A stretch of 64,000 nucleotides of DNA from Pseudomonadota bacterium. Its GTDB lineage: Bacteria > Pseudomonadota > Gammaproteobacteria > Steroidobacterales > Steroidobacteraceae. The notes beneath the pieces are model-generated. The model did not search any database. It was not told where the DNA came from and saw only the letters and a program-made list of their open reading frames with translations. The first letter of the stretch is position 1. Each line of letters starts with the position of its first letter. Below, one piece after another: positions 48,243-64,000 of this stretch. Location: contig JAJYUL010000013.1 in the NCBI GenBank assembly GCA_021792555.1, positions 1 to 64,000 on the forward strand, given 5' to 3'. Made by a program: the position numbers and the translations under genes.

Positions 48243-48248
48243 GTCCGC

Positions 48249-49277: not shown

Positions 49278-49366
49278 GCGGCTCGACGGGACGACCCTTG
49301 TTTTTACTTATTGTTACAAATTGTAGCACTGCCGCCGCTGCCCTGCACCTGCGGTAACAGGACATC

Positions 49367-49397
49367 CGTCATCGCGGCCCAATGGGCCGCGATGACG
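49367..49397. repeat. perfect 14-bp inverted repeat between csrA and the GGDEF gene
   Basis: CGTCATCGCGGCCC (49367-49380) and its exact complement (49384-49397) are separated by the loop AAT. No T-tract follows on either strand, so it is not a standard intrinsic terminator. The 179-bp gap 49278-49456 otherwise holds no gene. It may be a csrA transcript-end hairpin, a REP-like element or an operator. Confidence 0.7.
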
Positions 49398-49456
49398 TTG
49401 CTCAGTAAACAGCTGACTCGCCGGCGGACCTGCCAGAGCGCTCGGCCCGCGCCGGC

Positions 49457-49687
49457 TCAGGCGCTCGGCGGTGCGAAGCTCGGCACCGACTTCGGCGCCT
49501 CGCCGTTGCCCGCTGCCGCGCGCTGCTCGCGCTTGATCCGCTCGTAGATCTCCTCGCGATGCACCGCGATGTGCTTCGGCGCATTGATGCCGATGCGTAC
49601 CTGATTGCCCTTGACGCCGAGCACCGTAATGGTCACCTCGTCCCCGATCATCACGGTCTCGCCGACTCGCCTTGTAAGAATGAGCAT
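49457..49687 (-). CDS. csrA: carbon storage regulator CsrA
   Basis: CsrA is a dimeric RNA-binding post-transcriptional regulator. The 76-aa product begins [20 protein letters not shown], followed by [20 protein letters not shown] and [14 protein letters not shown]; Arg44-type RNA-contact residues of VHREEIY are present. It is longer than the 61-residue E. coli form by a Pro/Ala-rich tail. It lies 54 bp downstream of fecR on the same strand, so the lasso-associated sigma/anti-sigma operon could read into csrA. Confidence 0.97.
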
Positions 49688-49741
49688 CTGCTGGTCCTCT
49701 CTAGATATTAATGGTCCAAATCACGATCCGATCCGCACGCT

Positions 49742-50779
49742 TCAACGGGGAACGCCCCTCCCCCCCGTGCCTGCGGATCGGTAGCCCAGAACGAGCTCCC
49801 CGTCCTCATGGGTGACGGTGATGGGCTCTATCCGGGCAATGCGGTCGAGCGTGGCGGTCACGTTCCGGGTGCTGAAGGCCCCGCCGACCTGCATGTGGGC
49901 CGCGCGCGGATCGGCAATGACGATGCGCTGCGGCGTGTAACGGCTCAGATTGCGCACGAACTGCGCCAGAGGCTCCCCCCGCGTCTCGATGATGCCCTGA
50001 CGCCAGCGGATCACGTTCGCCGCCAGAACCGGGTGCACGTCGCTGATCAGGCCGACCGGGGAGTATTCGATCTGCTCGTTGGCCGTCAGGCGGCGCATCC
50101 ACGACGGTTTCGCGCGCGCGCCCTCGCCGAGCCCCTCCACCGAGACCGTGCCGCTCACGACTGTCACGAGCACATCGCCGCCGCGCTTGCGGTACACGTC
50201 GAAGCGCGTGCCGAGCACCCGCACCTCGCTGTGCGCCAGCAGAATGCGGAACGGGCGCGTCGGCTCGTGCACCACCTCGAAGAAAGCCTCCCCGCGCAGC
50301 AGCCGCACGCGCCGGTTGCCGGGACTGCCCACCCAGCGCAGCCGGGTATCGGTGTTGAGGTAGGCCATGCTCCCGTCGGGCAGCACGACGCTCGCAGTCT
50401 GACCGACACCGGTCTGATACGTCCTCGGCAGGTACCCCTGGCCCCACAGCCACAATCCGCCCGCGCTCGCCGCCACCACCACCGCCGTTGCCGCCACGGC
50501 GGCCAGCCACAGCGTGCCGAGACTCGGCCGTTGCCGACTCGCTGCGGCCGCTACGCTTGCGGCGAGCATGGCGCGCGAGCCCCCTCTCAGCTCCGCAGCG
50601 ACATCGAGTATCGCGCGCAACTCGCTGAATTCTTTTGAATTAACGGGATCGTCCAGCCAATGCTCGAGCGCCCGCTGCCGCCCGGGCGTCAGCCCCTGAC
50701 CCATTCGCGTGAGCCACACGGCCGCCTGCGCGCGCGCGCGCCGCTCCCGCCGTCGTTCAAGGAATGCGCCGAGACTCAC
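49742..50779 (-). CDS. FecR-type anti-sigma factor/sensor
   Basis: This 345-aa inner-membrane protein has a cytoplasmic N-domain (DUF4880-like, VWLTRMGQGLTPGRQRALEH), one membrane helix near residues 88-112 (TLWLAAVAATAVVVAASAGG), and a periplasmic FecR domain (QTGVGQTASVVLPDGSMAYL, then RLLRGEAFFEVVHEPTRPFR). The C-terminus resembles the STN-like fold that contacts the receptor's signalling domain. FecR proteins relay occupancy of a TonB receptor to an ECF sigma factor. It overlaps the sigma gene by 4 bp; the receptor with an STN domain is 1 kb away. Confidence 0.93.
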   Translation of the reverse strand: MSLGAFLERRRERRARAQAAVWLTRMGQGLTPGRQRALEHWLDDPVNSKEFSELRAILDVAAELRGGSRAMLAASVAAAASRQRPSLGTLWLAAVAATAVVVAASAGGLWLWGQGYLPRTYQTGVGQTASVVLPDGSMAYLNTDTRLRWVGSPGNRRVRLLRGEAFFEVVHEPTRPFRILLAHSEVRVLGTRFDVYRKRGGDVLVTVVSGTVSVEGLGEGARAKPSWMRRLTANEQIEYSPVGLISDVHPVLAANVIRWRQGIIETRGEPLAQFVRNLSRYTPQRIVIADPRAAHMQVGGAFSTRNVTATLDRIARIEPITVTHEDGELVLGYRSAGTGGRGVPR

Positions 50780-51345
50780 TCGACCTCCGCCAAATCAATA
50801 CCTTGCGATGACAATTGCATCCGGCACTGCTTCAACGCGCGCGTCATGCGCTTATCGACCCGCCGCTCGGAAATCCCCAGACGGGCGGCGATTTCCTTGC
50901 GCGGCCTGCCCTGCACGTGCGCCATGACGAACACTGCGCGCAGCGGCGGACTCAAATCCTGGATGACCTGCGCCAGGCGCTGCGCGATCTGATCGGCCAT
51001 CACCTGCCGGTCAGGCCCGCCGCTGCGATCGGGCACCTCCTCCATGCCCGCAGGACCGCTGATCACCGCGCTCTCCACTCGGCGCCGGCGCAGCTGCATC
51101 AGCGCGTTGTTGGTGGCGACCTTGAAGAGCATCGCGCGCGGGAACAGCAGCTCCTCCGGCCGGTACGTACGGTGCAGCTGCTCGTAGGTGTCCTGGGCGA
51201 CCTCGCGCGCCAGGTCCACGCGGCCGAGCATTTGGGTGAGATAGGCGAGCAGCTGCGCCTCGTGTGCCCGGCACAGTTGCTCGAAGAAGGCGTCCGTCCC
51301 CCCCAGCCGGAGAAAGCGCCTGATCTCGCCCGAACGTTTGTCCAT
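50776..51345 (-). CDS. FecI-type ECF sigma factor
   Basis: The 189-aa product has sigma region 2 (LLAYLTQMLGRVDLAREVAQ, DTYEQLHRTY) and region 4 (LSPPLRAVFVMAHVQGRPRK, EIAARLGISERRVDKRMTRA) and nothing else, as ECF sigma factors do. Paired with FecR by a 4-bp overlap, it should direct transcription in response to the receptor at 51.7-54.7 kb. It is transcribed divergently from the lasso precursor gene across 175 bp. That intergenic region is the natural place for its target promoter, but no ECF consensus was identified. Confidence 0.93.
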   Translation of the reverse strand: MDKRSGEIRRFLRLGGTDAFFEQLCRAHEAQLLAYLTQMLGRVDLAREVAQDTYEQLHRTYRPEELLFPRAMLFKVATNNALMQLRRRRVESAVISGPAGMEEVPDRSGGPDRQVMADQIAQRLAQVIQDLSPPLRAVFVMAHVQGRPRKEIAARLGISERRVDKRMTRALKQCRMQLSSQGIDLAEVE

Positions 51346-51406
51346 TCCCTATTCCTTAACTCCTAGATGCGGCGGGGGCCGGTCCCCCCCCTGCCGATAC
51401 GAAAAA

Positions 51407-51435
51407 TTGGCATGCGGTGCGCCCCGCGCTAGCAT
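51407..51435 (+). promoter_or_regulatory. candidate promoter of lasso precursor 1
   Basis: TTGGCA (51407-51412), a 17-bp spacer and TAGCAT (51430-51435) form a reasonable sigma70-type promoter. It lies 85 bp upstream of the precursor start, which has AAGGAG (51508-51513) 7 nt before its ATG. A GC hairpin (51371-51393) lies on the sigma-gene side. Confidence 0.5.
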
Positions 51436-51520
51436 TGAACATAATCCACCCCGGGCGTCCCCTGGGGCACGACAGCGGCTTGCGATCCATCGTCGGTGCA
51501 CTCGAATAAGGAGTCACGGC

Positions 51521-51685
51521 ATGAACACTCCGACCCCTGCTGAACCTTGCCTGAGCGAGCCGGCCGAGGCGCCGGCGCCAGCCGATCCCCAGAGCGAACT
51601 CGTCGAGCTCGGGACGATCAGCGCGACCGAGGGCGGCATCCTCGGCCTGAAATACGACACGGGCGTCGGCTGGCAGTACTACTAG
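51521..51685 (+). CDS. lasso peptide precursor 1
   Basis: A 54-aa precursor. Residues 1-37 are an acidic, Pro/Ala-rich leader ending VELGTISATE, the 'LGxxSxxTx' pattern of proteobacterial lasso leaders with Thr at -2. The predicted core is residues 38-54, GGILGLKYDTGVGWQYY. Gly1 and Asp9 (Gly38, Asp46) would form a nine-residue isopeptide ring, and the eight-residue tail holds Trp14, Tyr16 and Tyr17 as possible plug residues. The start follows AAGGAG with 7-nt spacing; an upstream in-frame ATG (51338) lacks such support. It is convergent with the TonB receptor gene (28 bp) and opposite in strand to the B, C and D genes that should process it. The core is not one I recognise. Confidence 0.88.
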   Translation: MNTPTPAEPCLSEPAEAPAPADPQSELVELGTISATEGGILGLKYDTGVGWQYY

Positions 51686-51713
51686 CCGCTGCCCGACGGC
51701 GCGCCCTCGCCCC

Positions 51714-54713
51714 TTACCAGCGCTGGTCGAGTTCGAGACTGACGACGCGGCCGAGCGCCTGTACGTTGTAGATGTCATAGCCGAACTGGCTGTCGACAAA
51801 CGGCGGGTCGTGATTGAGCGCGTTCATCGCATTCAATGAGACGGTGGTCTGTCCCAGGCGCCCCGGCCTCAGCCGATAGCGCAGGTATACATCGAGCGTG
51901 CTCCAGGCCGCCACGACTGGCAGGAGCGTACTGCCGGGGTTGCGGTATGCGCCGGTGTAGTTGACCGTCAGAGCGCCTGCCCAGCCCGGCCGCCGCGCCC
52001 CATGGTCGCTCCAGCCGAGCGTGCCGCGCAGGCGCAGCGACAGCGGATTGCCCACGGTATCGAGAATGCTCACCGCCGGGGAGGCCGGCGTGACCGCCTG
52101 CGTGAAGGCGAGCACGTCGGTCCCGCGCAACTCGAACGCGAAATGTCCCCAGCGGTTCACCAGGTGATCGCGCGCCTCGAAGTCGATGCCGCGGGTGTGG
52201 GTCGTCGCGAGGTTCGCCAGACGCAGATCCACGATGGCCGCCGGCCGGCTCGCCAGACACGTCGAGACCGGCCCGATGTACTGCCGGCTCGTGCAGATCG
52301 CGGCGATCTCAGCTGCCGTCGGGTCGCGGTTGATGACCGCGGCCCATTCACTCTGATGCTGCAGGATGCCGAGCGGATCGTCGGAGGCCGGCTGCTCGAT
52401 CCGGTTCCAGTAATCGATGTCGTAATAGGTCAGCGACACCTGTGCGCCGCGCCACGGCGCGACGTCGAGACCTGCCGTCCACGTGCGCGCGGTTTCCTGG
52501 CGCAGATTGGGGTTCGAGCCCTGCTCGGCGAGCACGAGCGCCCGGCCGGTCGGGGAGCTCGGATCGGACAGCACCGCAAGACCGGCCACGTTCTGCGCGG
52601 TGTCGTACAGATCGTCGAGCTTCGGCGCGCGGTAGGAGCGGCCCCAGCTGGCGCGCAGCTTCAGCCACTGGGTCGCCGTCCACTGCAGGCGGGCCGTCGG
52701 ATTGAAGGTGCCGCCGAAATCGCTGTAATGATCGTAACGCCCCGCCAGATCGAGCGTCACCCTCGGTGAGGCACGCCGGTTGTCCGCGCTGCCGATGAGC
52801 GGCACGTGCAGCTGCGAGTAGGCCGACATCACCTGACGGCCGAAGTGCTGAGGCACGGGGGTGGCCAGCGGGCTGGCCGGATCCGGCACATCGATCTCGA
52901 GCGACTCGGTGCGCCGCTCGAACCCCACCGCGAGCTTCGCCTCCCCGGCCGGCAGCCGCAGCAGCGGTCCGTTCGCCACCAGATCCGTCGAGCGCATACC
53001 CGAGACCGAATGCAGCTGGAACGCGCGGCTGAGCGTGCTCAGCGTCGCCGGGGCGACAGCGGCGCTCGCGGCGAAGGGATCGAAGGCCGTGGCCGGATTC
53101 GGATCGGCGAGCGCCGCGGCGAGCGCCACCGGGTCGGTCACGCCGTACTCGGTGCTGCGCAGGAACTGCTTGCCGCTCGATTCGCTCACCGTCATCTGCC
53201 AGTGAGCCCCGAGGCGGATCGTGGCCCCCGCCGTGCCCGTAAACACGCGCGTCCTGCTCGCAAAGCGCGTCGGCCCGAGCAGCCGCAGAAAGTTGTATGC
53301 GACGAGGGTATAGGGAACCTGCGGATAGGGATTGATGTAAAACGGGTTGCTCGGAGGAACCTGCAGCACGGTGCTGTCGGGCAGCGAGCTGCGCGTGGTC
53401 CTGCGCTCGGCGTAGCGGCCCTGCGCGAACAGGTCCACGAACGTGCCGATGTGCTGGCTCACCGAACCGTAGAACTCGTGCGCCATGCGATCGGGGAAGA
53501 TCTGCAGCGCGCTGAAGGAGTTCTGCAGGTTGATGGCGGGACTGAGCCTCGCGGCGGTCAGCGTGCCGGTGTATCCGGCGGGAATGCCGTAGGCCGGCTG
53601 CAGGGTGAAGGGATTGAGGATGTTTCCGGGATTGGTGTAATAGGTGTCGTAATTGCTGCCGCCGTAGGGTGTCTTGTCGGTGTCGGCAGCGTATGGACGG
53701 GCGGCCGCATCGAGCGGCGTCGCATCCGAGTACTCATAATCAAACATCGCATGCCCGCTGCGCCAGCGCGTGCCGAGCAGCTGCGCGAACATCCATTCGG
53801 CCCGTCCGTCGGGCGCGCTCCCGTAGCGCACTTCCGACTGCGCTCCGGTGAAATCATCGCGCATGATGATGTTGACGACACCGGCCACGGCGTCCGCGCC
53901 GTACAGCGCCGATGCCCCATCGGGCAGCACCTCGATCCGCCGCACCGCGCTCCACGGAATGGTCGACACGTCCACGAAACCCCCGGTGAGCCCGCCGAAC
54001 GGCTGGCGGCGTCCGTCGACCAGCACGAGCGTGGCTCCGACGCCGAGTCCGCGCAGGTTGATACCTGCTCCGTACTGATCGTTGTCGTCGATGCCGAGGT
54101 CCTCGCGCGGTCCGTTGAGCGAGACCAGCGGCAGCGCGTACAGGGCCTGCTGCACGTTCGGATAGGCGGCCTGCTTGAGCTGCGCGTGCCGGATGTATAC
54201 GAGCGGCGCAATTGCCGAGCGCACTCCGCGAATGAGGCTGCCGGTGACTTCGACCGGCCGAAGCGCCACCGGGTTTATATCCGCTACCGGATGTGGCCTC
54301 AGGGGTGCGGGCAAAACGGCGGGCGCGAGCGGGGTGGCCCGCGCCGGCGGCTGCGGCATCGGCCGGATGATGACCGAGTGCGGGGAATCGAACGTGAAGG
54401 TGAGCCCCGTGCCCTCGAGCATCCGTGCGAGCGCGACCGAGCTCTCGAGCCGACCGGACACCGCGCGCGTCCTGAGTTTGCGCACCTCGGGCGTTGCGGC
54501 GTAAATGGCCTGCACACCGGACTGATGGTAGAAATCGAGAATGGCCTGCGGCAGCGCTTCGGCCGGCAGATCGAACTGCACCACCGGACCGTCGGCCCAG
54601 GCGGACGGCGTCATGCACAGCGATGCCAGCGCTATCCACGCCGTCGGGCCCGCACACCGCCTCACCCGACGCTCCAGAGTCCCGTTTCTGGATGCTTGCT
54701 TTGTTTGATCCAT
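51714..54713 (-). CDS. TonB-dependent receptor with STN signalling domain
   Basis: This 999-aa outer-membrane receptor has a signal peptide (AWIALASLCMTPSAWA), an N-terminal STN domain (about residues 45-117, VVQFDLPAEALPQAILDFYH), a TonB-box-like VEVTGS near 155, a plug (INLRGLGVGATLVLVDGRRQ, then IPWSAVRRIEVLPDGASALY) and a 22-strand-type barrel ending in an aromatic residue (LELDQRW). The STN domain predicts signalling through the neighbouring FecR and sigma factor. It is the last gene of the lasso biosynthesis operon, 12 bp after the C gene. Similar receptors accompany lasso clusters and import or sense the peptide; the ligand here is inferred. Confidence 0.93.
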   Translation of the reverse strand: MDQTKQASRNGTLERRVRRCAGPTAWIALASLCMTPSAWADGPVVQFDLPAEALPQAILDFYHQSGVQAIYAATPEVRKLRTRAVSGRLESSVALARMLEGTGLTFTFDSPHSVIIRPMPQPPARATPLAPAVLPAPLRPHPVADINPVALRPVEVTGSLIRGVRSAIAPLVYIRHAQLKQAAYPNVQQALYALPLVSLNGPREDLGIDDNDQYGAGINLRGLGVGATLVLVDGRRQPFGGLTGGFVDVSTIPWSAVRRIEVLPDGASALYGADAVAGVVNIIMRDDFTGAQSEVRYGSAPDGRAEWMFAQLLGTRWRSGHAMFDYEYSDATPLDAAARPYAADTDKTPYGGSNYDTYYTNPGNILNPFTLQPAYGIPAGYTGTLTAARLSPAINLQNSFSALQIFPDRMAHEFYGSVSQHIGTFVDLFAQGRYAERRTTRSSLPDSTVLQVPPSNPFYINPYPQVPYTLVAYNFLRLLGPTRFASRTRVFTGTAGATIRLGAHWQMTVSESSGKQFLRSTEYGVTDPVALAAALADPNPATAFDPFAASAAVAPATLSTLSRAFQLHSVSGMRSTDLVANGPLLRLPAGEAKLAVGFERRTESLEIDVPDPASPLATPVPQHFGRQVMSAYSQLHVPLIGSADNRRASPRVTLDLAGRYDHYSDFGGTFNPTARLQWTATQWLKLRASWGRSYRAPKLDDLYDTAQNVAGLAVLSDPSSPTGRALVLAEQGSNPNLRQETARTWTAGLDVAPWRGAQVSLTYYDIDYWNRIEQPASDDPLGILQHQSEWAAVINRDPTAAEIAAICTSRQYIGPVSTCLASRPAAIVDLRLANLATTHTRGIDFEARDHLVNRWGHFAFELRGTDVLAFTQAVTPASPAVSILDTVGNPLSLRLRGTLGWSDHGARRPGWAGALTVNYTGAYRNPGSTLLPVVAAWSTLDVYLRYRLRPGRLGQTTVSLNAMNALNHDPPFVDSQFGYDIYNVQALGRVVSLELDQRW

Positions 54714-54725
54714 GATCCCTGCCGC

Positions 54726-56570
54726 TTATGCGACAGTGTGCCACATGTTGGGCTGCCGTGACGAGTCCGGTCCTCGCCAACACCGCAGCCACGCCTCGAC
54801 AGAGGCGTATTCGAGCAACTCTCCAGACTGAGTCTTGATTTCGGCCCGGCCCGCGAGGGCCTGCTCGAGCGGCGCGCGCGCAAGCAGGCCGCAGCGCACC
54901 AGCTCGCCATCGAGCAGCAACTCGCGCAGCAGCGGCCGGTTGCGCTCGACAGTCAGGCGGGAATGGGCCTCGATGCCGCCTTTGTTGCGGCGGTTGCGGA
55001 TCTGCGCCGGCAGCGCCTCACGGAAGGCGCGCCGCGCGATCGCGCGGTCCCAGCCGCCCGCCGTGAGCACATCGACCGGGATGCGCAGACATAATTCGAT
55101 GAGCGGCTGCGAGAGGAGCGGCGCGATCCGCTCGGCATCACCCGGCGCGGCGAGCGGATCGTAGAAATCAAACGGCGCGAGGACCTGATGCGCATGCCAG
55201 CGTTTGCCGCTCGAGGCGCCGCTCTGTTGATGCACAAGCGGATGCAAACAGTACGCTTGGCGCACCGCGGCGCTCACCACGCCGGGAGCGAGCAGCGGCC
55301 GGGCGCGCCCGGCCTCATCGCGCGGACCCCAGCGCCGCCGGCCCAGCACTTCGCGTGCCGTGCGGCCGAGCACCCGCCAGAGCGAGAGTTGATCCATCCG
55401 CGCCGCATCGAGCAGCACCCCGAGCAGCGCCGGCGCGAGGCCGCGCCGCCGGACAAATTCCGCCGGCGCCCACTCGGCGCGCTCGGCATAGAAGAGCTGA
55501 TCGCCGCCGTAGCCGATGAAGAGCGTCCCCGCACCCTGCTCGCGCGCCAGCGCGGCCTCGCGCCGGCTGTGCTCCAGATAGAACAGATAGTTGGTCGGCT
55601 CGGCGCTCGCCGGCACGGCAAGCAGCGCTGCGAGCTCGAGACCGAGCGGCCGCTCGCGCTCGATGAGTGCGACGCCGGCGTGCGCCGCGGCGAGGCGCGC
55701 AAAGTGGCGCTCGTCCAGATCCGTGTGCGGGGGATAGTAGTGAAAACACGTCACGCGCGGCCCGGGCGGCGCCGCAAGACAGGCGAGCAGAATCGAGGAG
55801 TCGAGCCCGCCGGACAGCGACAGCAGCAGGCTGCGCGAGCTCGCACCCCAGGCGCGCACCACCTCGCGGGTGCAACGGCCGAGCGCCTCAGCGGCCGCCT
55901 GCGGCTCATCGATCGGAGCCGCTGCGGCGAGCGCGAGCGGATCCCACTCGTAGCTGCGAGTCACCCGCGCCTCGCGGTGCCGTACGCACTGCCCGCCGAG
56001 CACCTGCGAGACACCCCGCAGGCCGCTCGGAGCACTGTGCTCGCGCAGCAGACACAGACAGGCCGCGACGTAGGCCCAGTCGGGCTCGAACGGCCGCGCG
56101 CGCAGGGCACGCACGTCCTCGATCCGCGAGCAGTACACGTCAAGCTCGCCGATGCGCAGCGTATAGCACGGCAGCCCCGCTGACGGGTCCCGCAGGATTC
56201 GGACCTCCCGTGAGGCCGGATCGCGCAGTACGGCCACGTAACGGCCCCAGTACCGCTCGATGAGCCGCCGTCCGCCTGAGGCGACGATCGCGTGGCTTTC
56301 CGGGGCGTCGATCCGCGCGGGTGCGGCCAGGGAAGTCCCCTCCGTATCCCGTGCGAACAACTCGCCGAGTACCACGCCGCGACCGCCGCGGAGCCGGCGC
56401 GCCATGGCGCGGCCCGGCCGCTCGCCGGCGCAGCGCACTTGCAGGCCGGCTGCGCTGAACGCCGTGCGCCACGGCCCCTTGGGCGGCCGCGGTTCGGCGC
56501 ACAGTCGCGAGGCAACCGAGCGAGCCGCGGGCTCGGCATCATTCCAGACGAACACCACGTATCGGAACAT
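54726..56570 (-). CDS. lasso cyclase (C protein), asparagine-synthetase-like, locus 1
   Basis: The C protein adenylates the ring Asp/Glu side chain and forms the isopeptide bond with Gly1. The 614-aa product has an N-terminal glutaminase-like domain without the Cys2 nucleophile (it begins MFRYVVFVW), and an AsnB-like synthetase domain with the PP-loop SGGLDSS at residues 253-259 and IGYGGDQLFY further on. Loss of Cys2 is the rule in lasso C proteins, which need no glutamine hydrolysis. ATG 56570 lies 2 bp after the B stop codon, although the frame is open well into the B gene. The order B-C-receptor places it in one operon. Confidence 0.92.
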   Translation of the reverse strand: MFRYVVFVWNDAEPAARSVASRLCAEPRPPKGPWRTAFSAAGLQVRCAGERPGRAMARRLRGGRGVVLGELFARDTEGTSLAAPARIDAPESHAIVASGGRRLIERYWGRYVAVLRDPASREVRILRDPSAGLPCYTLRIGELDVYCSRIEDVRALRARPFEPDWAYVAACLCLLREHSAPSGLRGVSQVLGGQCVRHREARVTRSYEWDPLALAAAAPIDEPQAAAEALGRCTREVVRAWGASSRSLLLSLSGGLDSSILLACLAAPPGPRVTCFHYYPPHTDLDERHFARLAAAHAGVALIERERPLGLELAALLAVPASAEPTNYLFYLEHSRREAALAREQGAGTLFIGYGGDQLFYAERAEWAPAEFVRRRGLAPALLGVLLDAARMDQLSLWRVLGRTAREVLGRRRWGPRDEAGRARPLLAPGVVSAAVRQAYCLHPLVHQQSGASSGKRWHAHQVLAPFDFYDPLAAPGDAERIAPLLSQPLIELCLRIPVDVLTAGGWDRAIARRAFREALPAQIRNRRNKGGIEAHSRLTVERNRPLLRELLLDGELVRCGLLARAPLEQALAGRAEIKTQSGELLEYASVEAWLRCWRGPDSSRQPNMWHTVA

Positions 56571-56572
56571 GG

Positions 56573-57304
56573 TCAGATCCGCAGAATGGCCGAGTACTGG
56601 CGAACGTGGTCCGGCAGATCGTTGAACAGGACCGGCCCCAGCTGCACCCAGCAGTGCGCGTGAAACGGCGCCGTGCGCACTCCGAACACCCAGTCCGGGT
56701 ACAGTCCGTGGGCCTGCAGGAACAGCAGCAGGGTGAGCGAGTCGAGCAGACATGCCCCTCGCGCGGTGTAAAAAAGCGGCCGCAGATACACGAATCTGCC
56801 CACCAGCGCCTGCGCGTGCGTCCAGTCGAACTGCGCCTCGGATGACTCGCGGCCCGCCCGGCGCGCGCGCATCCGCTCGAGCACTGGGTGCATGGAGCGA
56901 AACTGCAGCGATGCCCGCGCGATGGCCCATGCCCACGCCATGCGCCGGAGATCGCGCCCGCGCGGCGCCGGGCGCTCCTCGAAGTCGAACTCGAGCAGCG
57001 ACCGGCGCGGCTCTGCAATCTCCACCGGCCTCGCAGGCCGGCCTGCGCGCAGGTCGCTGACCAGGGCCCCTTGCTGAAGCAGCTGCGCCAGTACGGCCGG
57101 AGGCGCGCCCTGCGCCGCGGCGGCCCCTGCCCCCCGCGCCGGCCATCCGGCCACCCATCCGGCGAGCCCCTCGGCAGGCTGCACGGCAAAGTAGCGGTTG
57201 CGCCGCTCGTCCATCAGCACCGCGTGGCGGCCACACAGGACCACGTGCACGTACCGCGCCAGCCAGTACGGCGGCGCATTCCCGAAATCCCGGCTACTGT
57301 CCAT
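56573..57304 (-). CDS. lasso leader-binding/protease (B protein), locus 1
   Basis: A single-chain B protein of 243 aa. Residues 1-90 form a PqqD-like leader-recognition domain (ARYVHVVLCGRHAVLMDERR, NRYFAVQP). The C-terminal part is the transglutaminase-like cysteine protease that removes the leader, with predicted triad Cys185 (ACLLDSLTL), His217 (HAHCWVQLG) and Asp229 (LFNDLPDH). The start ATG 57304 has AGGAGG just upstream and is preferred to the longer frame, whose extra 62 residues look non-coding. A 149-bp gap separates it from the exporter gene; I found no precursor-like ORF in it. Confidence 0.92.
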   Translation of the reverse strand: MDSSRDFGNAPPYWLARYVHVVLCGRHAVLMDERRNRYFAVQPAEGLAGWVAGWPARGAGAAAAQGAPPAVLAQLLQQGALVSDLRAGRPARPVEIAEPRRSLLEFDFEERPAPRGRDLRRMAWAWAIARASLQFRSMHPVLERMRARRAGRESSEAQFDWTHAQALVGRFVYLRPLFYTARGACLLDSLTLLLFLQAHGLYPDWVFGVRTAPFHAHCWVQLGPVLFNDLPDHVRQYSAILRI

Positions 57305-57453
57305 ATCCCTCCTCCTGCCAGAGCGAGGCCATCGATACGGTTCGTCCCGTGGCCTGTGCATCTGTACCATTGCGCGCCGAAGCCGCCCAGCGCGATTGGC
57401 GGCGAATTCGTGCACAAATGCGCCACCGAATTCAATCGGGTTCCCGGTAGGCC

Positions 57454-59220
57454 TCAGGCGGCCGCCTCGCCCATCTGCTGCGCCCGCCACAGCGCCGCGT
57501 ACTGCCCCTCAGCCCGCAGCAGCGCCTCGTGCGGGCCCGATTCGACCACCCGTCCCGCATGCAGCACGAATATGCGCTCGGCATGCGCCACACTCGCCAA
57601 GCGATGAGCGATGAGCAGAGTCGTTGCCGATCGCGACAGCGCCCGCAGGCTAAGGAGAATGGCCTGCTCGGTACGGCTGTCGAGCGCCGCGGTCGCCTCG
57701 TCGAACACATAGATGAGCGGCCGGCGCAGCACAGCACGGGCGATCGCGATCCGCTGCCGCTCGCCGCCCGAGAGCCGCACGCCGCGCTCGCCGATGACCG
57801 TGCCGTAGCCCCCGGGTAGCCGACGGATGAACTCCTGCAACTGCGCAACCTGCACCGCCCGCTCGATGTCCTGGTGCGTCGCCTGCGGCCAGCCGACCGC
57901 GATGTTATATTCGATCGAATCGTCGAACAGCACCACATCCTGCGGCACCACTGCAATCGCGGCACGCAGCGCCTGCGGCGCGATGTCCGCCAGAGGTATG
58001 CCATCGAGACGAATCTGCCCTGCATCCGGCTCGAGCAGCCGCAGCAGCAAGCGCACGATGCTCGATTTCCCCGACCCGCTCTGCCCCACGATCCCGAGCG
58101 TCGCTCCCGCCGGCAGCGTAAAACTTACCTCATCGAGCGCAGCGCGACCCGGACCGTAGAGGAGTGTCACGCGCTCGAACTCCAGTGTCCCCCTCGCGGT
58201 GCCGTCCAGCTGCACGCCGGTCGCCGGCTCCGGACGCTCGGCGAACAGCGCCAACGCCTTGTCGAGCAATGCCGAGCCATGTGAGAGTCCCTGGACCGCG
58301 AAGCCGAGCATCTCGGCGGGGCGCACCATCTGCAGCATGTACGTGTTGACCAGGACGAAGCCACCGACCGTCATCTGTCCGGCGCGTACGCTGTGCAGCG
58401 CAAATGCGAGCGTCGCGACCAGAACCAGGGCGAATACTCCAGCGACCGCAAGTCCGTTGGCGGTGTAGCGGCGATGAAAGGCGAGCCACGCCTGCTCGCT
58501 GCGCGTCAATGCCCGAGCAGCCTTGCCTGCCGTCAGCCCTTCGGCGCCGAAGGACTTTACGGCCTCATAATTGAGCAGGCCATCGGTCATGACCGCGCCG
58601 GCCGCGACCCGGGCCGCGGCCGCTTCCCGCGCCGACCCCGCGATCCGCGCCGCGGAGCGCCCGAACAGCAGTACGTAACATGCTGCCGCGACGGAAAACA
58701 TCAACAGAAAGACCGGCTGACCGGTCCGCGCGAGGACCACCGCAGCGACCGTCAGTTCAGCGCCCACCGGCAGAACCGTGAACACGAGGTGGTGCAGGAT
58801 CATCCGCATTCCCTCGAGCGCATTCTCGATCGTCTGACTGACCGCTCCGGTTTGACGGCTCAGGTGATACCGCAGCGGCAGCTGAAGCACGTGCGCGAAC
58901 ATCCGCTCACTCAAGGTGCGCAGGATGCGGCGCTCCGCCCGCGCGTACCGGAGCGCGCGAACTTCGGCGCCCGAGCGCGCCAGCCACTGACTCAAGACAT
59001 ACAAGCCAATCAGGATTCCCGCCGACAGCGGGACATCTCCCGGTCCGGTGAGCCCGTCGATGAGCCACTTCAGCGCAAGCGGCGCAAGCCCATTCATCAG
59101 CGCGCCGAACATCACGAGTAGCAGAACCTCTGCCAACCGCCCGCGGACATACGGCGTGATCTCGCGACGCAGCAGGCGCCACACGTCCCGCCAACGCTGC
59201 AGGCGGGACCTGAGATTCAC
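57454..59220 (-). CDS. lasso peptide ABC exporter (D protein)
   Basis: A 588-aa half-transporter with six transmembrane helices in the first ~310 residues and a C-terminal ATPase: Walker A GQSGSGKSSIVRLLL, signature LSGGERQRIAIARAVL, Walker B LIYVFDEATAALD, and the switch His in IAHRLASV. This is the McjD-like arrangement; such exporters secrete the lasso peptide and give self-immunity. Its GTG start overlaps the stop of the HUH-like gene (GTGA, 59217-59220), so the two are translationally coupled. Its substrate is inferred from context; it may also serve locus 2, which has no exporter. Confidence 0.92.
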   Translation of the reverse strand: MNLRSRLQRWRDVWRLLRREITPYVRGRLAEVLLLVMFGALMNGLAPLALKWLIDGLTGPGDVPLSAGILIGLYVLSQWLARSGAEVRALRYARAERRILRTLSERMFAHVLQLPLRYHLSRQTGAVSQTIENALEGMRMILHHLVFTVLPVGAELTVAAVVLARTGQPVFLLMFSVAAACYVLLFGRSAARIAGSAREAAAARVAAGAVMTDGLLNYEAVKSFGAEGLTAGKAARALTRSEQAWLAFHRRYTANGLAVAGVFALVLVATLAFALHSVRAGQMTVGGFVLVNTYMLQMVRPAEMLGFAVQGLSHGSALLDKALALFAERPEPATGVQLDGTARGTLEFERVTLLYGPGRAALDEVSFTLPAGATLGIVGQSGSGKSSIVRLLLRLLEPDAGQIRLDGIPLADIAPQALRAAIAVVPQDVVLFDDSIEYNIAVGWPQATHQDIERAVQVAQLQEFIRRLPGGYGTVIGERGVRLSGGERQRIAIARAVLRRPLIYVFDEATAALDSRTEQAILLSLRALSRSATTLLIAHRLASVAHAERIFVLHAGRVVESGPHEALLRAEGQYAALWRAQQMGEAAA

Positions 59221-60353
59221 TGATCCTCCTCAGAGGTATCCGGCGCATCGGGCACGGCCGCCTCCTCGGCCTCGCCATCCTCGGCGCTGCAACCCTCCCT
59301 GACTCCCGCGCGTGTGTGCAGATCTGCTTCCCCAAGTGCAGACTCGTCCGTCCCCATGGCCGCCAGAATCGCCTCTGCCGCGCTCAACAGGCCATCTGGG
59401 TCACGCGCGCGCAACCGTAACACCGACTCCTGCAAAGTGCTGCCGTCGCGGCCCAGCAGCGCCCCGATCATCGCGAGCGACACACCGCACCGCACCGCCA
59501 CCAGCGTCACCAGGCAGCGCGCGTGGCAGATACGTCGCGCCCGCGAGCGGCTCGCGAGCTCCAGCGCGCTGACCTCCTCACGCTCCGCCACGAACCGCAC
59601 CACTGAACGCAACAGGACACGCTGCCGCCGCTTGCGCAATGCCTGGGCCGGTCGCACCCGATGACGGATGTGCGGCAAGGTCGCCCGCGGCGAGGCGAAT
59701 GCCAGCGCCAGCTCCTCCTCCACCCCCCGGGCACGCAACGCCCGGTACTGCCGTCGCGCACCCGGTCCGCGCCCCAACTCCTCAAGCACCGCCGAAGCGT
59801 CCACCCACGGCATGCTCGCCGGATCGAGATAAGCATCATCCGCGGTCCATCCGCCGCCTTTCAGCGGACGGTGCAGCCAGAGTATGAAATCGGTGCGGAA
59901 TGCCCGCTGCAGCCGGTAAACCCGCATGGGGCGAAAGACCTGCCCCTCCCGGCTGCGGGCGCGATTGAAATGAAGCGCGTACGGTACGGTCACATAGCGC
60001 AGCATGTTGCCGAGCGGAACGAGTGCAGTCTCGATCGCCAGCTCCACACGGTCCGCTTCGCAGCGCAAGCCGAGAATTCGGCCTCCGCACCAGAACAGCA
60101 TCGTATCGATGCCGTCGGCCATCTTCCGCCAGTCGCCTTCTTCCCGGACGAGTGCCTCCGGTCGACAGCCGCGCAGCACCACATGAAACAACGCCGCGGG
60201 TTTGCTCGCCGCTCCCACTCGACCGCTCCTGGTCTTCATGTTGATCCCCCTTCGCGCGCAAATCGTCTCGCTCGCGGGCCGCTTCATTGCGCGCTCTTCG
60301 GCAACCGTACCGTCGCCGAACATCTCTGCGTCAGTACCGACAGAGGACAGCAT
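59217..60353 (-). CDS. domesticated RAYT/Y1_Tnp-like protein fused to a DnaA-domain-IV-like domain
   Basis: A 378-aa protein. Residues 50-210 follow the REP-associated tyrosine transposase pattern: AALFHVVLRGC, then LHFNRARSREGQVFRPMRVY, then DPASMPWVDA. Where active enzymes have the metal-binding HUH motif ('NHVHLL'), residues 101-105 read DRVEL, so both histidines are gone and transposase chemistry is not expected. Residues about 245-318 match the DnaA C-terminal DNA-binding domain (RSRARRICHARCLVTLVAVR, VSLAMIGALLGRDGSTLQES), including the GRD-ST signature. An acidic tail follows. ATG 60353 has GGGAGG 6 nt upstream; ATG 60239 (MKTRSGRV, Met39) also has a site and matches the family start. 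It heads the lasso-1 operon, coupled to the exporter, so a regulatory role is inferred. Confidence 0.85.
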   Translation of the reverse strand: MLSSVGTDAEMFGDGTVAEERAMKRPASETICARRGINMKTRSGRVGAASKPAALFHVVLRGCRPEALVREEGDWRKMADGIDTMLFWCGGRILGLRCEADRVELAIETALVPLGNMLRYVTVPYALHFNRARSREGQVFRPMRVYRLQRAFRTDFILWLHRPLKGGGWTADDAYLDPASMPWVDASAVLEELGRGPGARRQYRALRARGVEEELALAFASPRATLPHIRHRVRPAQALRKRRQRVLLRSVVRFVAEREEVSALELASRSRARRICHARCLVTLVAVRCGVSLAMIGALLGRDGSTLQESVLRLRARDPDGLLSAAEAILAAMGTDESALGEADLHTRAGVREGCSAEDGEAEEAAVPDAPDTSEEDQ

Positions 60354-60452
60354 CCCCTGCCTCCCTTCAAAAATACGTTACTCCGAGCTTTGCACCGATG
60401 CAACTTCGCGTTCGGCGGCGGATCAAGGATGTTGCACAGGAGCTTGGCGGAA

Positions 60453-60657
60453 TTCCCAACGTTCCCGCAGACACGATGTCACCATCGGCTCTGACTTCCC
60501 AACCTCTGATGATTTACGACGGGGATGCGGCACCCGAACAAACCCTGTACCGAGCGACTGAAAGCCAGGCGGAGCAGTTCCCAAGCTCCCCGCCCCTTTA
60601 CGGCGACACCAGACCTAAGTAGTTGATCGGACTGCTCTCCAGTTCCCAACCTCCCGC
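60453..60657 (+). repeat. four TTCCCAAS direct repeats between the two lasso operons
   Basis: Four copies of TTCCCAA(C/G) lie in the 505-bp gap between the HUH-like gene and lasso precursor 2: 60453, 60496, 60578 and 60643. Three extend to a longer shared element: TTCCCAACGTTCCCGC, TTCCCAAGCTCCCCGC and TTCCCAACCTCCCGC; the copy at 60496 keeps only the first part. Copies 1 and 3 are also preceded by GGCGGA. The rest of the gap shows no credible gene. They may be operators for the HUH/DnaA-like protein or REP-like remnants. Confidence 0.65.
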
Positions 60658-60752
60658 ATGTGAAGAATCGGAGCGGCCTCCGCTCTCGCGCCTTGCACAC
60701 TCCTTAGGTCGAAACGGGCCGCCTTGCGCGGGCGATTACATCGCGCTCGCTC

Positions 60753-60758
60753 TTGACA
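60753..60758 (+). promoter_or_regulatory. possible -35 element for locus 2
   Basis: A consensus TTGACA lies about 100 bp upstream of lasso precursor 2, but no good -10 box follows at 16-18 bp (TTCCGT at 17 bp). It could need an activator. Weak support. Confidence 0.3.
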
Positions 60759-60858
60759 GACCGCCAAAGCAGTTCTTCCGTGATCACGCCACCCCGGAAT
60801 CCGGCGCCAGTCCGGGCGTGGTGAGTTCAACCATCCACCTCCACTGAGGAGAATGACC

Positions 60859-60948
60859 ATGACGTACCACGGCAGTGTCTCTTACGACACCAAAGGTATC
60901 GACACGCAGCAGACCGAAAGCCTGGGCGTGCCCGGATACCAGTTCTAA
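60859..60948 (+). CDS. lasso peptide precursor 2, very short leader
   Basis: A 29-codon gene. The ATG at 60859 has AGGAG (60847-60851) 7 nt upstream; an ATG two codons earlier is too close to that site, and no other start codon exists in frame back to a stop at 60781. The leader is MTYHGSVSYDTK, with Gly at -8, Ser at -5, Thr at -2 and a break before Gly. The predicted core is GIDTQQTESLGVPGYQF: Gly1 and Glu8 (Glu20 of the precursor) would close an eight-residue ring, leaving a nine-residue tail. Its own B and C genes follow at 74 bp and 790 bp. A 12-residue leader is much shorter than the usual 20-40. The core is not one I recognise. Confidence 0.85.
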   Translation: MTYHGSVSYDTKGIDTQQTESLGVPGYQF

Positions 60949-60956
60949 AGGGACTC

Positions 60957-60984
60957 GCGATGCGCGGCTTCGGCCGCGCATCGC
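60957..60984 (+). promoter_or_regulatory. C(UUCG)G hairpin between lasso precursor 2 and its B gene
   Basis: A perfect 12-bp stem (60957-60968 with 60973-60984) capped by a TTCG tetraloop begins 8 nt after the precursor stop. No T-tract follows (CCCTTCTG), so it is more likely a 3'-end stabiliser or partial terminator than a full terminator. It would raise precursor mRNA relative to B and C. Confidence 0.8.
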
Positions 60985-61021
60985 CCTTCTGCAGAAATCC
61001 CCACTCCCAGGACACCCGACC

Positions 61022-61729
61022 ATGTACCAGCTGGCCCCGCATGTGTTTGCCTGCACCACTGGCCGCAACTGCATGTTTTTGGATCTGCGGCTCGATCGCT
61101 ATCTGTCCGTTCCACAAGAGCTAATGGACGAGCTCGCGCCACAGATTCACGACTGGCATCTGTCTGGCGTTGCGCAGCGGCGCAGCGGTTCCCCACAAGG
61201 CGAACTTACCCAGATCATCAACGACCTGACTGCGGCCGGCATACTGCGCCAGTATCGGCCAGAATTCCGCCCACGAAGGAATCCGCACCCGTCGGCCACA
61301 CGAGACATTACATCTCAGAGCAACCTCCAAGTCCAAGACATTCCGTCATTCCACCGCGTCACCGCATTTGCGGCGCTCGTGTCTGCGGACGTTGCACTGC
61401 GGACTCTGCATCTCTCTCGGATCATCGAGCGAATAGCCGGTCACACATCGTCCTCCGGAACAGTCGTTCACACAGAACGCATGAACACAGCATGCGCACT
61501 GACCGACCGCTTTGCGGCACTCCGCCCATGGTATCCACGGAACTACCTCTGCCTGTTCGACTCGCTCGCGCTTACCCTGTTCTTGATGCGCCACAACATA
61601 CGAGCCGAGTGGATTTTTGGCGTTCGCGAAGATCCCTTTGCCGCACACTGCTGGGTTCAATACGGTGCCGTTGTTCTAAACGATCACCTCGACAGAACAC
61701 GTCTATACACACCTATCATGACTGTCTGA
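61022..61729 (+). CDS. lasso leader-binding/protease (B protein), locus 2
   Basis: A 235-aa fused B protein. The N-terminal ~85 residues are a PqqD-like recognition domain (LAPHVFACTTGRNCMFLDLR, LDRYLSVP). The C-terminal protease has predicted triad Cys177 (LCLFDSLAL), His209 (FAAHCWVQY) and Asp221 (LNDHLDRT), with exactly the same spacing as in the locus-1 B protein. The two share little sequence in the N-terminal half, which suits recognition of different leaders. ATG 61022 gives the domain border; upstream in-frame starts would run through the hairpin. The C gene starts 9 bp downstream. Its GC content is visibly lower than that of locus 1. Confidence 0.92.
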   Translation: MYQLAPHVFACTTGRNCMFLDLRLDRYLSVPQELMDELAPQIHDWHLSGVAQRRSGSPQGELTQIINDLTAAGILRQYRPEFRPRRNPHPSATRDITSQSNLQVQDIPSFHRVTAFAALVSADVALRTLHLSRIIERIAGHTSSSGTVVHTERMNTACALTDRFAALRPWYPRNYLCLFDSLALTLFLMRHNIRAEWIFGVREDPFAAHCWVQYGAVVLNDHLDRTRLYTPIMTV

Positions 61730-61738
61730 GTCCACACT

Positions 61739-63631
61739 GTGGATTATCCCTTTCTTGCAGTCCTTTGGAACCCGCTAGATCCCGCGCAGGCCCCGGTCGC
61801 GACCCAATTTCTTGGCGCAATCCGCCTTCAGCCGTGGCGTATAGTGATTGAGCGCGACGGAATGACCGTCTACACACAGTCCTCTCCTATACCATATCTC
61901 GCTGCGCAGCCCCTTCGAAACGCTCGCGGCGTCGTCCTCGGGGTACTTTTCGACCGCAACACAAATCAACGGCCTTCGACGCAAGAGATCCGGGAAGATC
62001 CCCTTTTCGCCGAACCCGGTCTAGAAACCGTTCACAACCTCGCGCGGCATTATTGGGGCGGATATGTAGGACTCCTGGCGGGCCCCCGCGGCGATTGGTG
62101 TGTGTTTCGCGACTGCTCAGGCATGATTCCCTGCTACTACACAGCGGTTCGGGGCGTCACACTCATTTCCTCCGATGCACGTAACTTCTTTAGTTTTACT
62201 CGCCTGCCGGATCAACCTGGCCCGCCAGTACCGATAGAGATCAACTGGCGGTACATCGCTGGATTTCTGGCCCACAGCCAATTGCAGATACGCGAGACCG
62301 GCCTCAAGAACATCTACGAACTCCTCGCCGGTGAAACTCTCTATATCCGCCGAGGACGGCATTGCATCGAGACCACCTGGAACCCCTCGGCCTTTGCCGC
62401 CTTTGATTCCCGGGAGACCCTTGAGGCGCGCTGCGACGCGCTACGCACCACCGCTCAGGCCTGCATAGACGCGTGGGCGAGCGTCCACGATTGGGTCGTA
62501 CATAGTCTTTCAGGCGGGTTTGATTCCTCCCTGGTTCTCGCACTGCTGCGACACTCTCCAACTCGGCCCCATGTCGTCTGCATCAACCGATATTCCACGG
62601 GGCCTGGCGAAGACGAGCGCGAGTACGCCCGTATTGCCGCACGCGCTGCAGACACCCCACTCGTCGAATGGCCATGGAATTTTGGAAATCAGGCTCTCGA
62701 TCCCTCCTTACTCCAGCTCCCGTACAGCGCAAAGCCCTCCATTCCCGCGCTACTGAGCCCCTTGGAGGCCAACTTCTTCACTGCCTTAAGAGCCGCGCAC
62801 CCCTTCGATGCGATCTGGAACGGGGAAGGCGGTGACCACCTGTTTCTAGCCATGGCAACTGAACTCATCGTCACCGATTTCCTACGCGCAAAAGGACTCC
62901 GACCTCGCCTGCTCGACATCCTATGCGATGCCACCCGTCTGACCGGGCGCTCCATCCCCGGGTTGGCACTGCGCGCCATAAGATTCTCGAACCCAGCCAC
63001 AGTTCGGCATCCGGAATTTCCCCCTCTTACCCACTCCCTGCTTTCCCCTACCTGTTGCCACCGCGAGGATCTTTGCACTTACATTCAACATCCGTGGTCA
63101 AGTAGCAAAGACGACCTATTGCCCGGAAAACGCAGACAGATCACGCTGCTCGCCGACGTACTCCATCGTCTTCGTCCTCTTCCTGGGACACAACAGAGCG
63201 TCGAGCTTCAACCCCTCTTGTCGCAGCCCCTCATTGAGTATTGCATTGGAATTCCCTCGTACGATCTGCTTCACGGCGGCCGCACCCGCGGCCTCGCCAG
63301 ACGCGCATTCGCGAACAACCTGCCTGCTGAGATTATCAAACGCGAGACAAAGGGTCAGACTACCCATCACCTGCTGGGCCTCATGCGACGAAGCCTGCCA
63401 TTCCTCTCCGGAATCCTGCGCGACGGCACGCTCGCGCAGCAGAATCTGCTCAACGGACCCGCCCTGGAGCCGCTCCTCAATGAGACCCAGTCCGTCAGTG
63501 CAGAGAAACTCTTTGCATTACTTTCCTGCGTAGCCGCGGAAGTCTGGGTACGCTCGTGGTGCAATGCCGGCATTCCGCCACAGACCTCTTTGCGACTTCA
63601 GCGAGAGCCCTCGCGGTCCACCAACCTTTAG
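61739..63631 (+). CDS. lasso cyclase (C protein), asparagine-synthetase-like, locus 2
   Basis: A 630-aa product with a GTG start 9 bp after the B stop codon. It has a glutaminase-like N-domain lacking Cys2 (begins MDYPFLAVLWNP) and a synthetase domain with the PP-loop SGGFDSS (residues 258-264), then WNGEGGDHLFLAMATE and QPLLSQPLIEYCIGIPSYDL near the C-terminus. It should close the Gly1-Glu8 ring of precursor 2. Codon use is less GC-biased than in the surrounding genes, suggesting later acquisition. No exporter gene follows inside the window; a minus-strand ORF overlaps its 3' end. Confidence 0.92.
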   Translation: MDYPFLAVLWNPLDPAQAPVATQFLGAIRLQPWRIVIERDGMTVYTQSSPIPYLAAQPLRNARGVVLGVLFDRNTNQRPSTQEIREDPLFAEPGLETVHNLARHYWGGYVGLLAGPRGDWCVFRDCSGMIPCYYTAVRGVTLISSDARNFFSFTRLPDQPGPPVPIEINWRYIAGFLAHSQLQIRETGLKNIYELLAGETLYIRRGRHCIETTWNPSAFAAFDSRETLEARCDALRTTAQACIDAWASVHDWVVHSLSGGFDSSLVLALLRHSPTRPHVVCINRYSTGPGEDEREYARIAARAADTPLVEWPWNFGNQALDPSLLQLPYSAKPSIPALLSPLEANFFTALRAAHPFDAIWNGEGGDHLFLAMATELIVTDFLRAKGLRPRLLDILCDATRLTGRSIPGLALRAIRFSNPATVRHPEFPPLTHSLLSPTCCHREDLCTYIQHPWSSSKDDLLPGKRRQITLLADVLHRLRPLPGTQQSVELQPLLSQPLIEYCIGIPSYDLLHGGRTRGLARRAFANNLPAEIIKRETKGQTTHHLLGLMRRSLPFLSGILRDGTLAQQNLLNGPALEPLLNETQSVSAEKLFALLSCVAAEVWVRSWCNAGIPPQTSLRLQREPSRSTNL

Positions 63632-63935
63632 CCGGGACGGAGAGCCCAACACTTCGCAATTGGGCTGATGTTACCGATTGCGGACCGAGCAGGTTCAACT
63701 TTGCCCAATAGAAGTTTCGTAACCGGGAAATCCGCGCTTCCGCCGGCACATTGAGCCAATGGAAACTGTGACGGTATACAAAGGATTCCAGCTCTGCGCC
63801 CGCCGCACGCCACTCCTCGAGCAATTGTCCCGCCGCCGGATTCCGGCTCACGAATTCCACGAGAACTGGTCCGTGCGGCGGAAGACCGCTGCCTGCAGGA
63901 TCCATGTCGACGTAGTTCATGATAAAGTGCCGCAC
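63495..63935 (-). CDS. uncharacterised ORF convergent with the locus-2 cyclase
   Basis: A 146-codon minus-strand frame opens with a GTG at 63935 preceded by GGAGG at 7-nt spacing. Its first ~95 residues look protein-like (VLVEFVSRNPAAGQLLEEWR, then FHWLNVPAEARISRLRNFYW). The last 137 bp run antisense through the 3' end of the cyclase gene and are probably fortuitous, so the gene may be truncated or decayed. I recognise no family. The 65 bp from there to the window end show nothing. Confidence 0.35.
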   Translation of the reverse strand: MRHFIMNYVDMDPAGSGLPPHGPVLVEFVSRNPAAGQLLEEWRAAGAELESFVYRHSFHWLNVPAEARISRLRNFYWAKLNLLGPQSVTSAQLRSVGLSVPAKGWWTARALAEVAKRSVAECRHCTTSVPRLPRLRRKVMQRVSLH

Positions 63936-64000
63936 CGGAGGGCCTCCGAATCCCCATCGGGAGACAGTACGCCAAAGGCTGTTACCTAAGGAAAATTCGG

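Follow-up and report, generated by a model that had tools for sequence, protein, structure and literature searches.

A nuclease-dead RAYT-like protein with a DnaA-like helix-turn-helix as a candidate regulator of a divergent lasso peptide locus

The window analysed here is a stretch of 64,000 nucleotides from a bacterium of the Steroidobacteraceae (contig JAJYUL010000013.1 of assembly GCA_021792555.1; genome G000 below), and its gene of interest, at 59217-60239 on the minus strand, lies between two divergent sets of lasso peptide genes. The 340-residue protein that it encodes belongs to the RAYT family, the so-called domesticated transposases, has lost the catalytic residues of that family, is under purifying selection, adjoins lasso genes in every orthologous locus and stands beside an array of short DNA boxes. 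Taken together these observations point to a nuclease-dead, DnaA_C-bearing RAYT exapted as a cluster-situated transcription regulator of the lasso genes, an interpretation that we hold to be fairly probable.

A degenerate RAYT joined to a DnaA-like domain

A reading of the sequence alone had placed the gene at 59217-60353. An open frame of that length is indeed present on the minus strand, though the extension to 60353 is unsupported and the protein start moves to 60239. The first methionine of the conserved protein is taken to be encoded there because, on translation of seven plus two orthologues and two distant relatives, the frames above this methionine meet a stop or shift within a few codons, and because AAGGGGG lies just 5' of the ATG. 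Since the upstream frame is broken in the relatives, 60240-60353 was rejected as coding and is most likely a 5' leader. At the other end, the stop codon (59217-59219) overlaps the GTG start (59218-59220) of the adjoining ATP-binding cassette (ABC) exporter gene, as had been noticed; the overlap reads GTGA in nine of the ten orthologues and ATGA in one.

A profile of the ten orthologues aligns with one of 13 canonical RAYTs of the order over residues 6-279 at 25% identity (hhalign, 5.7e-26). All 13 canonical proteins match Y1_Tnp and nine match Bac_DnaA_C at E <= 0.01. The window protein has no Pfam match to Y1_Tnp at E <= 1, and a Y1_Tnp search across its own genome gave zero matches. The degenerate Y1/HUH transposase domain, delimited by hhalign, AlphaFold2 and Foldseek, spans residues ~15-195 (59655-60197, minus strand). 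Within it the N-H-V-H-L of the canonical HUH site is replaced by D63-R-V-E-L67 (60039-60053), the catalytic tyrosine column holds Trp121 (59877-59879), which is invariant in 10/10 orthologues, and the asparagine of the Y---NP motif is gone. Both HUH histidines, the tyrosine and the NP asparagine are absent from all ten orthologues, which carry DRVEL or variants of it, and the window protein lacks both the HuH motif and the Y---NP motif by which an active RAYT is recognised. Judged by its sequence, it is a degenerate descendant of the DnaA_C-bearing RAYT subclass and not an active member of it. The C-terminal part contains a DnaA domain IV-like helix-turn-helix at residues 212-272 (59424-59606, minus strand), for which the Pfam match to Bac_DnaA_C has an E-value of 1.7e-5 and 25.2 bits, below the curated cut-off of 31.5.

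The first AlphaFold2 model had a weak N-terminal half, with a mean predicted local distance difference test score (pLDDT) of 47.9. A second model, built from 12 sequences that included two distant RAYTs (L113 and L114), reached a mean pLDDT of 74.6 and a predicted template modelling score of 0.61, its N-terminal half owing its quality partly to the homologues in the alignment. The order of strands and helices in this model is that of the Y1 transposases. Foldseek matched it with probability 1.00 to the IS200/IS605 transposases 2f4f and 2vjv (target-based TM-scores 0.61 and 0.68) and to the RAYT 4er8 (0.50), with E-values of 3e-3 to 2.4e-2, and, likewise with probability 1.00, to the DNA-binding domains of DnaA in 3pvp (0.78-0.80) and 1j1v (0.77). 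Across the transposase and DnaA matches the E-values were 3.1e-3 or weaker and none was under 0.001. Thg1-like proteins were also ranked high, with a poor superposition (root-mean-square deviation ~16). The Y1 fold, the DRVEL site and the likeness to DnaA domain IV, all proposed from the sequence alone, are thus borne out by the profile alignment and by a model that resembles both IS200-type transposase and DnaA folds.

Linkage to lasso genes and selection

Orthologues were sought among 60 relatives, 58 genomes of the genus and the genome contigs of 84,980 species (two peptide patterns). The group consists of ten proteins, that of the window and nine others from metagenome-assembled genomes, every one in the window's genus. 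A single-protein search of the genome contigs returned nothing where an alignment-based scan succeeded; the further matches of the species-wide scan are distant (L019, L020 and L113), and neither the plasmid nor the viral-contig search found a relative. In 10/10 orthologue loci lasso genes adjoin the RAYT and the exporter gene lies behind it. The divergent B2-B set is present in all seven loci that reach it (G000, G030, G026, G006, G023, G020 and G070); the three remaining contigs end earlier, the plus side of G067 lying on a separate contig (L099). In G006 and G070 the B2/B pair of the minus strand was not seen, and the RAYT and exporter are kept beside the plus-strand lasso operon; in G030, G008 and G067 the pair is present only in pieces and the RAYT and exporter are again kept.

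The RAYT-like gene is under purifying selection. In eight of the 36 possible pairs among nine orthologues, the RAYT gene had a ratio of nonsynonymous to synonymous substitution rates (dN/dS) of 0.18-0.30, near the 0.16-0.24 of the exporter. The corresponding ratio of proportions of differences (pN/pS) was 0.14-0.39 for the dead domain, 0.17-0.44 for the DnaA part and up to 0.82 for the acidic tail. The orthologue of G024, excluded from the dN/dS test, lacks ~50 internal residues through an in-frame deletion.

The stretches around lasso B2 matches were then fetched from the 58 genomes within the genus and from 396 across the order. Together with the window and with L013 and L084, two orthologue contigs that only the RAYT had led to, they amount to 88 lasso loci; of the B2 matches, one above the cut-off (on contig 101 of G305) and 11 of the 12 below it were omitted. 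With a hidden Markov model that combined canonical RAYTs, the orthologues and degenerate proteins (that of L101 included), a RAYT family protein was found in 24/88 loci, the same 24 being recovered by a canonical-only model; without L013 and L084 the count is 22/86. Beside the ten of the window's group stand 14 others (L101, L121, L128, L140, L141, L142, L148, L149, L151, L152, L155, L156, L162 and L173), of which L128, L148, L149, L155 and L156 come from a single genus and are near copies of one another. The 24 fall in five genera, all of the window's family, and in other families of the order a RAYT relative occurs in 0/16 lasso loci. As a yardstick, at least 175 of the 396 genomes match the canonical RAYT profile (with scoring limited to six candidates in each genome), and at six per genome we estimate that about one RAYT would be expected by chance in the 1.24 Mb of lasso loci. 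Outside the order, a RAYT was found in one of 14 lasso loci from 13 genomes (L187), with its HUH site and tyrosine intact.

Each of the 24 lasso-linked proteins has lost the first histidine of the HUH site and the asparagine of NP; the second histidine is missing in 16/24 and the tyrosine in 17/24. Among 21 RAYTs not near lasso B2, which are those most like the window's profile and not a random sample, 16 are intact and five degenerate (L019, L020, L066, L067 and L070); these five lie in other chromosomal contexts, in genomes that carry lasso B2 elsewhere. The contrast of 24/24 with 5/21 is a ready-made comparison. The sequence-only reading had pointed to homologues scattered without a lasso link as the outcome that would tell against it: the link proves wide, 14 loci beyond the ten orthologues lying beside lasso genes, although unlinked homologues exist too.

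In a tree of 44 proteins, from which L121 was dropped as too short, 13 lasso-linked proteins group with the five unlinked degenerate ones at 94/87, slightly below the threshold that the tool sets for well-supported branches; the window's group sits on a long branch. All 28 lasso-linked and unlinked degenerate proteins lie on one side of a branch supported at 65/94. A single origin of all lasso-linked RAYTs gave a P-value of 0.222 in the approximately unbiased test and, on this tree, is possible. Degenerate RAYT-DnaA_C genes also occur outside lasso loci in L175, L176, L177, L019 and L020, with gene contexts alike within L019/L020 and within L175/L177, and these are other candidates for exapted proteins.

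Quorum-sensing genes recur in the lasso loci. In L151 genes for LuxR, LuxI and the RAYT are consecutive, and in L101 LuxI lies upstream, a ParB/SopB-like protein (SoPB_HTH, 6.7e-7) being encoded between LuxI and the dead RAYT at L101:1633-2490. LuxI is found within 11/88 loci (L101, L135, L136, L146, L151, L152, L153, L159, L164, L165 and L173), ten of which also have LuxR, suggesting an association between quorum sensing and lasso peptides in the order. Because LuxI occurs in 7/64 loci that lack a RAYT against 4/24 with one, it belongs more with lasso loci as such than with the RAYT. In the window, 47001-64000 gave zero LuxI matches.

A box array between the divergent operons

By word search, four boxes were found on the plus strand between the divergent operons: TTCCCAACGT at 60453-60462 (box a), TTCCCAACCT at 60496-60505 (box b), TTCCCAAGCT at 60578-60587 (box c) and TTCCCAACCT again at 60643-60652 (box d). 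These are the only matches to TTCCCAACCT at <= 1 mismatch in 60240-60858, all in the same orientation and spaced by 43, 82 and 65 bp. As many were reached in 0/300 dinucleotide shuffles of this region, and in an untargeted test four copies of any 10-mer arose in 0/100. The targeted test gave 0/300 in seven other genomes as well. At least two boxes at one mismatch are present in 8/9 regions read, and at two mismatches a spacing of 42-43 or 65-66 bp occurs in every region, though not for every pair. At spacing-matched positions the boxes are 87.5% identical against 32% in the 60-bp flanks (24 comparisons between groups); the value for the boxes is inflated by their having been picked by motif. 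Clusters of at least two boxes on one strand inside 100 bp are found in 6/10 orthologue loci, 0/14 loci with other RAYTs and 0/64 RAYT-less lasso loci. The strict word TYCCCAACCT is single in three of the last (L143, L165 and L099, which is the other contig of G067), and a looser word has one to three scattered copies in several. Genome-wide the strict word is near background, with six copies in G000, two of them here, and two for the reversed control.

Two promoters were predicted by eye: TTGCAT-N17-TAACGT at 60375-60403 on the minus strand for the RAYT operon, with similar sequences in some relatives, and a -35 element TTGACA at 60753-60758 on the plus strand for the plus lasso operon, present in the seven regions that reach it. 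Relative to each promoter the four boxes are on the upstream side, clear of its core. From the repeats themselves, DNA binding at 60453-60652 is plausible.

A second repeat, around GTTCGTCCC (near-palindrome GACGAGTTCGTC), forms pairs 21 bp apart in four relatives (L012:7796/7817, L084:216/237, L014:7512/7533 and L016:9493/9514) and is single in two more (L015:9402 and L017:7460). It is placed mid-region or, inverted, near the plus promoter, and is absent from the regions of the window and G070.

A repeat-word test was applied to 23 stretches, some overlapping genes, from 12 other-lineage RAYT loci (L121 and L156 left out). Two outliers emerged (0/30 shuffles each), both unlike the box: in L151 a word mostly within luxI, and in L128 a tandem repeat of 13 bp. 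The repeat of L128, around AGATCATCGA, has ten copies at L128:9494-9671, between the lasso B2 and ABC genes.

Proposed regulation and rival explanations

In the regulation that we propose, the DnaA-like helix-turn-helix would bind the row of TTCCCAACCT boxes and the dead Y1 fold would act as a scaffold that may let copies of the protein on different boxes associate. The protein-box complex would then switch the exporter and precursor operons. Given the position of the boxes, upstream of each predicted promoter and outside its core, this would most likely occur through upstream activation or looping control. Binding, any cooperativity, the sign of control, autoregulation and the signal are parts of this proposal that we infer, and quorum sensing may feed into RAYT control in some lineages. 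That the Y1 fold mediates such self-association is conjecture, by analogy with IS200 TnpA, which works as a dimer.

Several observations weigh against a transcriptional role exerted through these boxes. The TnpA-REP protein of E. coli appears monomeric in the available part of PMC6006769, contrary to self-association. G006 has a single box at <= 1 mismatch, a number equalled in 21/300 shuffles, and in the untargeted test G070 gave 8/100 while in the other seven genomes the top word was different or ordinary (24 to 100/100); top words differing from the box include one in G030 (2/100) and a run of A in G024 (0/100). The RAYT-less loci have no homologous region, so the absence of boxes there is not independent evidence. 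Near the RAYTs of other lineages the array was not found, so that the pairing is limited to one orthologue group; this would fit lineage-specific boxes and equally a different binding protein. At E <= 0.001 Pfam finds Bac_DnaA_C in only three of nine other-lineage proteins (L151, L152 and L155) and Y1_Tnp in two (L155 above and L152 below the cut-off). Five (L101, L140, L142, L162 and L173) match neither, L141 matches other helix-turn-helix families, and the 237-residue frame of L121 stops before the DnaA_C part. The extracytoplasmic function (ECF) sigma/FecR pair of the locus could also be the main control.

The boxes might instead be bound by another factor, the dead RAYT doing some other job, for example as an accessory of export or maturation. 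The overlap of RAYT and ABC genes in 10/10 orthologues, an ABC_D-like exporter near the RAYT also in L101, L173, L162, L128, L148 and L151, and the lack of the array in other RAYT lineages would all agree with this. However, in eight loci with the RAYT near lasso B2 the fetched sequence contains no match to this exporter, other ABC types not having been sought (L121, L140, L141, L142, L149, L152, L155 and L156), and the C-terminal end of the protein is modelled as a DNA-binding fold; on balance we regard such a role as unlikely. The dead Y1 fold might also bind the hairpin behind the precursor gene (60957-60984, plus strand), as RNA or single-stranded DNA, and so set the ratio of precursor to enzyme. 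TnpA-REP proteins bind REP (repetitive extragenic palindromic) hairpins, and this one is kept in 7/7 genomes with three pairs changed on both sides. Its covariation score was reached in 0/500 shuffles, that pair count in 56/500. Against this, lasso clusters that have no RAYT commonly carry a stem-loop behind the precursor, and hairpin binding leaves the DnaA_C part and the box array unexplained, which makes the idea quite improbable.

A decaying hitchhiker, an inactive element that entered a lasso locus by insertion and has since been passively inherited with it, would account for the lost catalytic residues, the deletion in G024 and the short copy in L121. It is difficult to reconcile with a dN/dS far below 1, the low ratios of the dead domain included, with retention of the RAYT where the B2/B pair is missing or fragmentary, or with family members in 24/88 lasso loci, and is very unlikely. 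For a still active HUH transposase only family membership speaks; with both histidines, the tyrosine and the NP asparagine gone in 10/10, that is practically excluded by the sequence.

Exaptation as a regulator of the lasso genes is therefore the interpretation that we retain for the window. A more tentative extension, to which we give somewhat less than an even chance, is that the nuclease-dead RAYT-DnaA_C proteins of one family form a new class of cluster-situated regulator, serving numerous lasso clusters, of five genera in the sample, encoded consecutively with LuxR and LuxI in at least one of them and, in the window's lineage, acting through an array that would couple two lasso operons to one exporter. 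Its chances are reduced because Pfam misses DnaA_C in most other-lineage proteins.

Relation to known systems

The fusion itself is already published: in the available part of PMC6006769, subclass 2.1.2 of TnpA-REP combines the Y1 core with a C-terminal Bac_DnaA_C domain, an architecture shared by the window protein. There, 291 of 292 RAYT group 1 sequences fall in subclass 2.1, probably TIRYT, REP-like sequences were not found beside subclass 2.1 genes, and the core sample (722 of 924) was selected for retention of HuH and Y. The window protein differs from that sample in retaining neither and in its link to a lasso locus. TIRYT elements are marked by flanking terminal inverted repeats, GGGG[AT][CG]A[CG]. 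In the portion of the literature available, no job is stated for the DnaA_C-bearing subclass, and a degenerate, selected and lasso-linked set makes that question testable.

DnaA and its box arrays offer a parallel in the helix-turn-helix fold (3pvp and 1j1v) and in several ~10-bp boxes in a row, but the window protein lacks the ATPase domain, TTCCCAACCT differs from TTWTNCACA, and the histidine with which DnaA contacts its box is Gly, Glu, Asp or Ala in the RAYT-like proteins. TldR is nuclease dead and resembles the proposed role as a transposon-derived regulator; it belongs to another family and is RNA-guided, whereas the window protein is a Y1 TnpA relative with a helix-turn-helix. TldR is described as a TnpB-derived transcription factor in the available part of PMC13418256. 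If our interpretation is right, exaptation from transposon enzyme to regulator would extend beyond TnpB to include the Y1 TnpA family, and regulator and boxes would give a handle for turning on silent lasso clusters. Among the matches listed in open-licence PubMed Central, judged by title and start of abstract, a link of RAYT or Y1 proteins to lasso peptides, or a RAYT transcription factor, was absent; subscription papers and preprints are largely outside that collection.

The surrounding lasso genes

Pfam and NCBIfam confirm the exporter, B2 and B genes that had been read beside the RAYT. On the minus strand the ABC exporter (57454-59220) is followed by a RiPP recognition element (RRE) plus B2 protease (56573-57304; NF033537, 2.7e-20), a B cyclase of asparagine synthase type (54726-56570), both with starts set by eye, a TonB-dependent receptor with an STN domain (51714-54713; Pfam) and, by profile matches, an ECF sigma factor of the FecI type (50776-51345) and a FecR-type protein (49742-50779). 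On the plus strand lie the precursor gene (60859-60948), the hairpin, an RRE plus B2 protease (61022-61729; NF033537, 2.7e-21) and a B cyclase (61739-63631). Proteobacterial lasso clusters with a TonB receptor and FecI/FecR are known. The window is like these in its B2, B, TonB receptor, ECF sigma/FecR and the stem-loop behind the precursor, and unlike them in the extra dead RAYT and exporter, the two divergent B2-B sets and the 12-residue leader.

No precursor was accepted for the minus B2/B pair (54726-57304) in a pattern search of 20 loci and inspection by eye of 12, the single pattern match, in L103, being judged unlikely; nor was one recognised upstream of such pairs in the RAYT-less clusters of the genus. 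The hairpin at 60957-60984 was rejected as a REP, having one copy per genome in the 3/3 genomes searched at <= 3 mismatches; a general REP search was not made. The plus operon has B2, B and a precursor with Gly1, Glu8 and a threonine at -2, the marks of a lasso cluster. Its precursor comprises the leader MTYHGSVSYDTK and the core GIDTQQTESLGVPGYQF, a layout found in 8/8 genomes that reach it; the leader has only 12 residues (MxxxGxVSxxTK) and the cores, all of the form Gly1...Glu8, vary.

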